The notes beneath the pieces are model-generated. The model was not told the origin of the DNA. It saw only the letters and a list, made by a program, of their open reading frames with translations, and did no database searches. A DNA stretch of 64,000 nt from Candidatus Altimarinota bacterium (GTDB lineage Bacteria > Patescibacteriota > Gracilibacteria > BD1-5 > UBA2023): contig JABFSX010000003.1 of NCBI GenBank assembly GCA_013268835.1, positions 62,001 to 126,000 of the forward strand. Direction: 5' to 3'. Below, piece after piece: positions 53,922 to 57,507 of the stretch. The translations under genes were made by a program, and so were the position numbers. Within the stretch, counting starts at the first letter, position 1, and every line of letters starts with the position of its first letter.

Positions 53922-53999
53922 TGGTGCAATCGACAGGGCTCGAACCTGTGACCTCCTCCTTCGCAGGGAGGCGTTCTAATCCAACTGAACTACGACTGC
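53922..53999 (-). tRNA. tRNA-Arg(GCG)
   Basis: Complete cloverleaf on the reverse strand: acceptor GCAGTCG/CGATTGC, D-stem GTTC/GAAC, anticodon stem CCTCC/GGAGG with loop CTGCGAA (anticodon GCG), T-stem ACAGG/CCTGT with loop TTCGAGC, discriminator A, encoded CCA. Bacteria usually use ACG (inosine) here; this gene has G34. Confidence 0.92.
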
Positions 54000-54067: not shown

Positions 54068-54403
54068 CTAGCTTCGTGGCATCCCGTAGAAGTCGAATCC
54101 TTTGAGATCCGTCATAGATTTGGTGATATAGTTTTTTTTCTTTCCTTTTTTGAAAAATCCACGTTCATCGATGATTCCCATCTCAACGAGTTGATCGATA
54201 TTTTTTGTTGGGAGCTTTTTCTTAGGGAATGCTTCTTTGTTCTGATAGTATCGAGTTCGTTTCTTGTAAGAGAGATTGAATCGTGATTGCTTGTTTTCAT
54301 TTCCAGTATAAATAACCATCGCTTTTTTCTTTCATTTTGAAAGCTTTCGAGCGGCTGCTTGTTTTTTTACGATACTAGATTTGAGTCCATGACTGTTTGC
54401 CAT
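54068..54403 (-). CDS. Small basic protein, unknown
   Basis: 111 residues, very Lys/Arg-rich (MANSHGLKSSIVKKQAAARKLSKGKKKAM...SYKKRTRYYQNKEAFPKKKLPTKN), with a more acidic middle (DQLVEMGIIDERG). It resembles a ribosome- or nucleic-acid-associated protein, but I recognise no family. One TGA gives Gly (KLSKGKKK). It lies 17 bases downstream of tRNA-Gly(UCA) on the same strand and may be read from the tRNA promoter. Confidence 0.7.
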
Positions 54404-54420: not shown

Positions 54421-54499
54421 TGGAGCGGGGAACCGGGTTCGAACCGGTACACCCAAGGGTTGAAGCCTTAGTACACTCGCTCATTTATGTTACCCCCGC
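54421..54499 (-). tRNA. tRNA-Gly(UCA), the UGA-decoding glycine tRNA
   Basis: Reverse strand. Acceptor GCGGGGG pairs with TCCCCGC, discriminator T (U73), encoded CCA. Anticodon stem TAAGG/CCTTG with loop CTTCAAC: U33, anticodon UCA, A37. T-stem ACCGG/CCGGT with loop TTCGAAC. D-arm ACAT/GTGT is weaker. The first base pairs G1-C72, C2-G71, G3-C70, U73 and C35 are glycyl-tRNA synthetase identity features in bacteria. tRNA-Trp would not show this acceptor stem. This tRNA explains the in-frame TGAs in the window. Confidence 0.92.
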
Positions 54500-54518
54500 T
54501 TGTGTAGATGTGGGCCGC

Positions 54519-54546
54519 ATTGTATACAAGGAGTCAAAAAAGTCAA
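54519..54546 (-). promoter_or_regulatory. Putative tRNA-Gly(UCA) promoter
   Basis: Reverse strand: -35 TTGACT (54541-54546), 16-base spacer, -10 TACAAT (54519-54524). It lies 8 bases from the -35 of the opposite elp3 promoter. Confidence 0.65.
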
Positions 54547-54554
54547 CGCTCACC

Positions 54555-54582
54555 TTGCTATTCGCCCTAAAATTCCTATATT
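54555..54582 (+). promoter_or_regulatory. Putative elp3 promoter
   Basis: -35 TTGCTA (54555-54560), 16-base spacer, -10 TATATT (54577-54582). The chosen start codon at 54592 lies only 10 bases after the -10, so the mRNA may be leaderless or nearly so. Confidence 0.55.
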
Positions 54583-54591
54583 CTATGGCAT

Positions 54592-56313
54592 ATGGAACAG
54601 ACAATAATCATCGATGAGATTCTTTTTTCACTTGCGAAAAATCAGAATATTACCACCAAAGAAGCCTTTCATAAAATAAAAAATGAGGTTTTAGCAAAAT
54701 ACCAAGTTTCCGAATGACCTTCACACATTCGGATGATCGAGCGATATGAGGAGCTTCTTACTCTCTCTGAAATTCCAGACGAGATTCGTATTCGAAAAGT
54801 GCTTCGTAAAAGAGCGGTACGATCGCTCTCTGGAGTTTCAGTGATTTCACTGCTGACCAAGTTTTGGGGATGTCCTGGAAAGTGTATCTATTGTCCTACG
54901 TATGAGGGTCTTCCAAAGAGCTATATTTCTGATGAGCCAGCCGTTCAACGAGCGGAGATGAATGCATTTGATCCGTTTCGTCAAGTACAGAATAGACTTC
55001 AATCACTTCGTATGACAGGAAATGCAATATCAAAATGTGATGTTCGGATTATTGGTGGAACTTGGAGTGTTTACCCAGTTGCATATCAGGAAGATTTTAT
55101 CAAACAAATCTATGATGCTCATACAGCATTTGAATATACTATTCGAACAAAATCAGAAAATGGAGGTGAAAATAATCCATTTCTTTCAGCATCGATAGAT
55201 TCTCATCCAGATTGGATTCCTTCACAGACACTTGAAGAAGCAAAAAAAAGAAATGAAACAGCAAAAAGTCGAGTGATCGGTATGGCGATCGAAACCCGTC
55301 CAGATTGGATTACTCCGGAAGAGATTATTCGGTTGCGTCAATATGGAGTGACTCGTGTAGAGATTGGATATCAGACAACTCATGATTATATCAATGAACT
55401 CAATAAAAGATGACACGGAAATAAGGAATCCATAGAAGCCACGAGACTTTTGAAAGATGCAGGATTCAAGGTAGTAGCACATATGATGCCAGGTCTCGTT
55501 TGAGCAACACCAGAGCTCGATCGATTAGCTATGAATGAAGTATTTGCAAATTCACTTTATCGTCCTGATGAACTCAAGATCTATCCAATGGTGGTAACTC
55601 CCAACTCTGAACTCACCGAGCTCTGGGAGAGATGAGAATTTGTTCCCTATGAAGATGATATACTTATTCCACTTATGGCAGAGCTCCAAGGAATGATTCC
55701 TGAATATGTTCGCTTAAATCGTATGTATCGTGATATTCCAGCTCATGAGATTCTTGCGGGGTCCAAACTTGCCAACTTGAGACAAGTTACTGAGATTGCT
55801 ATGCGAGCTCGTGGTATCACTCGTCATGATATCTCAGCTCGTGAGATCCGTGCTCGTGCCAATAATCCTCAAGATGCCATCCTAGATGTTATATTTTATG
55901 AGGCAAGCGATGGTCATGAATACTTCATTCAGATGATTGATCCAGTAGATCGTACGCTTTTTGGGGTATGTCGTATGCGAATCCCTTCACAGATATTTAC
56001 AGGTGAATCACACTTTATTCCAGAACTTGATAATTCTGCCCTGATTCGTGAACTCCATGTATTTGGTGATCAAATACCGGTATGAGTATCTGGTTTTTCT
56101 TCTCATATTTGAGATGATTTAGTGCCTATGGCAGGTCAACATATGGGATTCTGAAAGAAAATGCTCCAAAAATGTGAAGATATCTGTAATGAAAAATATA
56201 AAAGTGTCAAAAAGATTGCGGTTATCTCTGGAATCGGTGCCAGAGAATACTATAGAAATCGAGGATATGAGCTAAAAAATGAATATATGATAAAGAATAT
56301 TGACAGAACGTAG
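54592..56313 (+). CDS. elp3: Elp3-type tRNA U34 carboxymethyltransferase
   Basis: 573 residues. Radical-SAM domain with Cys94-x3-Cys98-x2-Cys101 (FWGCPGKCIYCPTYEGLPKSY) as the Fe-S ligands, then IIGGTWSVYP, AIETRPDWIT, GVTRVEIGYQTTHDYI. A C-terminal GNAT acetyltransferase region (VRELHVFG...VPMAGQHMGFGKKMLQKCEDIC...GIGAREYYRNRGYEL) follows; Gly there is often TGA. Elp3 uses acetyl-CoA and SAM to make cm5U at wobble U34. It is common in archaea and eukaryotes and sporadic in bacteria. It is divergent from tRNA-Gly(UCA), a U34-containing tRNA. Confidence 0.92.
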
Positions 56314-56464: not shown

Positions 56465-56974
56465 ATGAAACTCACTAACCGTGGTTTTACCCTCGTTGAA
56501 CTTATGATCGTTATTGCGATTATTGGTATCCTTGCTGCTGCTCTCTTCCCATCACTTACAAGTTATCTTAAACGAGGTCGTGATACGGCTCGTGCTTCAG
56601 GTGTTAAGGAGATCTCAACTGCCGTTGCCGCATATCAAGTAGATAAGCAACAACTTCCTACTGGAGTAGGAACCAATGGTGGTTGTGTTAATTCAGGTTC
56701 ACTTACAGCATACATCCAAAAATTTCCTGTTGATCCAAATGCAACACTTATTTGTGTTGGTGCTGCTGCTGGTATCTATGGTTATGGAACATGACAAATT
56801 AGCTGAACAACAACAGCTATCATAACTGCCATATTTGAAAATGCTAATGGTGGTAATACTGGTGGTGTTAGTATCGGTGCATATCAAAATTCTGTTGGAA
56901 CAATGACAGGTACTGTATTATCTGTAGATACTGCCATAAAGGGTAATGGTTCAGGATATGTTGTTCGCAATTAA
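56465..56974 (+). CDS. Type IV major pilin-like protein, copy 1
   Basis: 169 residues. Prepilin leader MKLTNRG cut before FTLVELMIVIAIIGILAAALFPSL (Glu5 conserved), then a helix and a Gly/Thr/Asn-rich globular head with two Cys (about residues 74 and 97) that could form a disulfide. Two TGAs give Gly late in the protein (YGTGQISGTTT). TGA-terminated reading would cut the head and lose the C-terminus. The leader tract TTTCTTTTCTTCTCTAAAC before ATG is pyrimidine-rich. Type IV pili act in attachment, twitching or DNA uptake. Confidence 0.92.
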
Positions 56975-56997: not shown

Positions 56998-57507
56998 ATG
57001 AAACTCACTAACCGTGGTTTTACCCTCGTTGAACTTATGATCGTTATTGCGATTATTGGTATCCTTGCTGCTGCTCTCTTCCCATCACTTACAAGTTATC
57101 TTAAACGAGGTCGTGATACGGCTCGTGCTTCAGGTGTTAAGGAGATCTCAACTGCCGTTGCCGCATATCAAGTAGATAAGCAACAACTTCCTACTGGAGT
57201 AGGAACCAATGGTGGTTGTGTTAATTCAGGTTCACTTACAGCATACATCCAAAAATTTCCTGTTGATCCAAATGCAACACTTATTTGTGTTGGTGCTGCT
57301 GCTGGTATCTATGGTTATGGAACATGACAAATTAGCTGAACAACAACAGCTATCATAACTGCCATATTTGAAAATGCTAATGGTGGTAATACTGGTGGTG
57401 TTAGTATCGGTGCATATCAAAATTCTGTTGGAACAATGACAGGTACTGTATTATCTGTAGATACTGCCATAAAGGGTAATGGTTCAGGATATGTTGTTCG
57501 CAATTAA
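56998..57507 (+). CDS. Type IV major pilin-like protein, copy 2
   Basis: Identical in protein and DNA to copy 1, including the leader sequence and both TGAs. It starts 23 bases after the copy 1 stop. A terminator hairpin follows at 57533, so the two copies probably share one transcript, which would raise pilin dosage. Alternatively one copy could be the substrate of antigenic variation, for which no silent cassettes are seen here. Confidence 0.92.

Follow-up and report, generated by a model that had tools for sequence, protein, structure and literature searches.

A divergent tRNA-Gly(UCA) and elp3 locus in a Candidatus Altimarinota bacterium: Elp3 as a probable general U34 enzyme and a conserved orphan neighbour

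In the Candidatus Altimarinota genome examined here, a tRNA-Gly(UCA) gene of the kind expected to read UGA as glycine lies back to back with elp3, the gene of an enzyme that acts on wobble uridines. The reading that we favour, at a probability of about 0.77, is that Elp3 is the general C5-U34 enzyme of the class, that tRNA-Gly(UCA) is one of its 14 targets, and that the divergent gene order was inherited and is not required by the recoding. The most constant neighbour of tRNA-Gly(UCA) is a small basic orphan protein, which is a more informative lead than elp3. The window referred to below is the whole stretch of 64,000 nucleotides that was analysed, and the features of the locus are listed in Table 1.

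Table 1. Coordinates of the features at the tRNA-Gly(UCA) locus, numbered within the window
Feature	Position	Strand	Remarks
tRNA-Arg(GCG)	53922..53999	-	near tRNA-Gly(UCA) in most genomes of the family
Orphan basic protein, 111 aa, pI 10.3, one TGA codon (G24)	54068..54403	-	
tRNA-Gly(UCA) gene, encoded CCA end	54421..54499	-	ARAGORN, Rfam, comparison of relatives
UCA anticodon of tRNA-Gly(UCA)	54461..54463	-	
tRNA promoter TTGACT-16-TACAAT	54519..54546	-	-35 at 54541-54546, -10 at 54519-54524
elp3 promoter-like site TTGCTA-16-TATATT	54555..54582	+	-35 at 54555-54560
elp3, 573 aa, radical SAM and acetyltransferase domains, 7 in-frame TGA read as Gly	54592..56313	+	

The tRNA-Gly(UCA) gene

The anticodon-UCA tRNA is reported by ARAGORN, which names it tRNA-Gly(tca) under table 25, and by the Rfam tRNA model when permissive filters are used (42.1 bits, cut-off 29). 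It is the lowest-scoring of the 40 Rfam tRNA matches in the window's genome, and with default filters Rfam did not detect it. The UCA anticodon sits in a standard cloverleaf with the acceptor stem GCGGGGG/TCCCCGC, the anticodon loop CUUCAAC and U73, and the molecule carries G1:C72, C2:G71, G3:C70 and U73, the glycine identity elements given by Shulgina and Eddy 2021. A comparison of 21 variants found in relatives shows standard pairing throughout at 21 of the 22 stem pairs, the outermost T-stem pair being broken in three variants; several stems show paired changes on both sides, and the anticodon loop and the U at position 73 are invariant. The preliminary description of a reverse-strand UCA tRNA with U73 and a GCGGG-type acceptor is confirmed by these data. 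Two further traits are an invariant GA in the D-loop, where other tRNAs have GG (compared by eye), and an anticodon stem that could form six pairs, also invariant among the 21 variants. The same genome encodes a second tRNA with the serine anticodon GCU in which the long variable arm expected of serine tRNAs is missing.

The tRNA was found in 64 of the 77 genomes of the order, and in the phylum sample that was searched the window's genome was the sole match. This genome has no RF2 over the cut-off and gives weak RF1-like matches only; the order as a whole behaves in the same way, with the exception of one strong RF2 match in G252, a large fragmented assembly. In-frame TGA aligns mainly with glycine positions. 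As judged from sequence, the gene encodes the tRNA-Gly(UCA) that decodes UGA in genetic code 25. It has the anticodon and the four identity elements of the tRNA-Gly(UCA) known from code 25 Gracilibacteria and Absconditabacteria, where RF2 over the cut-off is likewise missing and in-frame UGA likewise falls at glycine positions, and it shows no difference from the tRNA-Gly(UCA) of its own order. In contrast, the tRNA-Gly(UCA) of a second recoded family (G042:C1, 450769) has a clearly different sequence, and separate origins of the two are possible. That family (f13, presumably Absconditabacteria), the second without RF2 over the cut-off, was checked in one complete genome, G042, which was read in stretches because the strict tRNA pattern is too narrow for f13.

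Elp3 in the window and across the class

The product of elp3 scores 484 bits against TIGR01211 (cut-off 350, a whole-protein score), which bears out the earlier assignment of a forward-strand elp3 starting 92 bases from the tRNA. Its acetyltransferase domain is covered by full-length alignments (TIGR01211 and MinElp3 6ia8); the Pfam GNAT models alone remain below their cut-off. An alignment to MinElp3 6ia8, checked by eye with residue numbers from PMC6367351 and PMC13315578, the papers in which the residues important for Elp3 were shown, retains K150, E207, K266, K302, Y304, Y517 and the Fe-S cysteines. The protein is complete and should be an active enzyme. It has the radical SAM and acetyltransferase domains, Fe-S motif and catalytic residues of single-subunit Elp3 (archaeal MinElp3, bacterial DmcElp3; TIGR01211), and differs from known members in adjoining a UGA-decoding tRNA gene; the linker cysteines, which PMC6367351 reports to be conserved in the Elp3 of bacteria and archaea, are also missing from it. 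MinElp3 binds a broad range of tRNAs and is activated by U34 tRNAs in general, Ser(UGA) and Gly(UCC) among them, and Elp3 was active on any U34 tRNA tested (PMC6367351). U34 tRNAs make up 14 of the 40 tRNAs in the window's genome.

Elp3 over the cut-off is present in 200 of the 288 genomes of the class, and MnmG over the cut-off in none of the 288. Many elp3 genes of the class are free of in-frame TGA, and Elp3 is frequent in standard-code families that have RF2 over the cut-off, which together argue that Elp3 precedes the recoding or is independent of it. Elp3 was rejected as a marker of the recoded code. The only two genomes of another order in the class differ in this respect: G012 (L098) has an Elp3 with 27 in-frame TGA, mostly aligned with glycine, and no RF2 match, and G023 has RF2 and an Elp3 without TGA. 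A large family of the class (f7) is mostly without Elp3, and as MnmG over the cut-off is missing class-wide, the family may have no known C5-U34 pathway.

Nor does Elp3 always accompany the tRNA. G113 and G206, which belong to different genera and are 93% and 88% complete, both carry tRNA-Gly(UCA); G113 has no Elp3 match and G206 has one at E = 6.8e-5 only, which is not convincing. The RpoB gene of G113 contains an in-frame TGA. Incomplete assembly is a possible, less likely reading of the missing Elp3 in these two genomes. Loss of both the tRNA and elp3 in G097, G282 and G290 was not accepted, missing assembly of the locus being simpler because the orphan gene is also absent in G097 and G282.

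Modification of U34 and the reading of UGA

In the favoured reading, Elp3 would place a 5-carboxymethyl group on the U34 of U34 tRNAs generally, tRNA-Gly(UCA) included, a general role that is suggested by the missing MnmG, the usual bacterial enzyme. The altered U34 of tRNA-Gly(UCA) would favour purine-ending codons and keep the tRNA off the Cys codons UGU and UGC, and UGG would be kept separate through competition by tRNA-Trp(CCA), of which the window's genome has two copies. What the data show are the genes, the conserved catalytic residues, the missing MnmG and the limited synteny; the modification and its effect on decoding are inferences. Formation of cm5U34 in tRNA-Gly(UCA), as first suggested, is plausible in view of an apparently active Elp3 and the class-wide failure to find MnmG; the special link between this tRNA and Elp3 that was part of the same suggestion is unsupported.

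It had also been proposed that the modification limits misreading of UGG. This is doubtful, since C5-modified U34 strengthens the reading of A and G and blocks pyrimidine-ending codons, and the mitochondrial tRNA-Trp with taum5UCA reads UGA and UGG (PMC4066797). The expected effect of a C5 side chain would thus be to block misreading of Cys codons rather than of UGG. The mitochondrial tRNA-Trp resembles tRNA-Gly(UCA) in reading UGA with a UCA anticodon, and C5-modified U34 is reported there; unlike tRNA-Gly(UCA), it is charged with Trp and reads UGG too. Its modification, in a further contrast, is the work of an MnmE/MnmG-type pathway. In E. coli tRNA-Arg(UCU), mnm5U34 reads the G-ending codon weakly, so that some discrimination against UGG by a C5-modified U34 is possible; the UGA/UGG ambiguity itself was already pointed out by Shulgina and Eddy 2021 (both PMC8629427).

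The orphan protein downstream of the tRNA

The orphan gene begins 17 nt downstream of tRNA-Gly(UCA) on the same strand. Its product has no convincing match in Pfam, NCBIfam, PHROGs or PDB sequences, and its AlphaFold models (low overall confidence, means 73 and 74) match no PDB fold. Its 34 matches in named genomes bear the labels Gracilibacteria, Patescibacteria, Altimarinus or unnamed bacteria. The protein might be a partner of tRNA-Gly(UCA), that is an RNA-binding or ribosome-associated factor of the order that supports UGA-glycine decoding or the function of the tRNA and, in some genomes, shares its transcript. We regard this as unlikely, although several observations speak for it: the protein is encoded by 55 of the 60 genomes in the order and by none of the 228 others in the class; of the 57 genomes in which both genes were located, 38 have the orphan gene on the strand of the tRNA and at most 1 kb downstream of it; 29 of its 111 residues are K or R (23 K and 6 R); and 39 aligned sequences have a mean column identity of about 81%. 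Of the 48 cases in which the two genes share a contig, 47 have both on one strand, and a spacer of 16-22 nt in four genomes leaves no room for a promoter, so that co-transcription is likely there. Against a partnership stand the genomes in which the two genes are unlinked, and the many members of the order's second family in which the spacer measures about 100 nt or more and contains a hairpin resembling a terminator as well as -10-like sites (by eye). The protein is also absent from G012 and from G042, the complete genome of the other UGA-recoded family; given its absence from G042, UGA-glycine decoding as such cannot depend on it.

Another unlikely reading makes the orphan protein a translation factor peculiar to the order, which would have evolved alongside the recoding of UGA to glycine, with elp3 joining the same locus in one family; it may, for example, be a chaperone or ribosome-bound factor for tRNA-Gly(UCA). 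Between the tRNA and the orphan gene of L116, L155 and L157 there is a short and possibly structured stretch, bordered by repeats of the tRNA T-arm and 3′ end, in which Rfam names nothing.

The divergent arrangement and its conservation

The two genes are divergent across a gap of 92 bases, and the two -35 boxes described earlier are both there, with 8 bases between them. Matches to the promoter consensus are weak taken alone (5 found, 2.2 expected). The tRNA promoter recurs upstream of tRNA-Gly(UCA) in many relatives, and linked genomes have a -10-like site immediately upstream of the elp3 start; in the window the elp3 -10 box ends 9 bases before the ATG, from which a leaderless elp3 mRNA is likely. 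Beyond elp3, on the forward strand, tandem genes at 56465-56974 and 56998-57507 encode identical pilin-like proteins of 169 aa and are followed by two more pilin-like genes.

Close divergent promoters could co-regulate elp3 and tRNA-Gly(UCA) as a dedicated pair, so that the UGA-reading tRNA would always be C5-modified. What recommends this is that seven genomes from six genera keep a spacing of about 92-120 nt amid mostly different flanking genes; within 5 kb they have little in common except the orphan protein and, in most cases, tRNA-Arg(GCG). Retention of the linked pair in changing surroundings makes a mild advantage of the arrangement possible. However, of the 48 genomes in the order for which both genes could be placed, only those seven, all of one family, have a divergent pair within 0.3 kb. 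A further genome has the pair at 1.9 kb, and in another elp3 lies on the tRNA strand at a distance of 0.57 kb; in the remaining 39 the genes are on different contigs, many of them contigs of fragmented assemblies, or more than 200 kb apart. The 20 Elp3 loci fetched from unlinked genomes came with about 5 kb of flanking sequence, or as much as the contig offered, and none had tRNA-Gly(UCA) there. The order's other two families lack the pair, and it is broken within its own family, where linked and unlinked genomes are intermixed in the Elp3 tree (its deep branches not resolved), and in G042 the tRNA (450.8 kb) and elp3 (near 979 kb) are some 0.5 Mb apart. Conservation of the divergent pair throughout the order was accordingly rejected. 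The tie between a wobble modifier and code reassignment thus fails two of the tests set in the preliminary description, that of a conserved neighbourhood and that of Elp3 in relatives which keep the tRNA. Together with the tRNA genes that occur without a convincing Elp3 and the spread of Elp3 through standard-code families, this makes a dedicated pair quite unlikely. The weakest alternative, a selenocysteine tRNA (the label comes from ARAGORN's bacterial code), shares the UCA anticodon and is next to impossible, being rejected on structure because a 7-bp acceptor and a short variable region stand in place of the extended acceptor/T stack and long variable arm, and because of the glycine identity elements, U73 and the in-frame TGA aligned mainly with glycine.

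With Elp3 as a general U34 enzyme, the divergent arrangement is most likely a local gene order that part of one family inherited and that was broken several times, and not a requirement of the recoding.

Implications

The class, in which Elp3 is the apparent replacement for MnmEG, offers a testable setting for the question of how tRNA-Gly(UCA) is kept off UGG, UGU and UGC when UGA means glycine. So do the two related genera in which UGA is read as glycine and Elp3 is apparently missing. Among possible components of a translation machinery associated with recoding, the orphan protein is a concrete new candidate.
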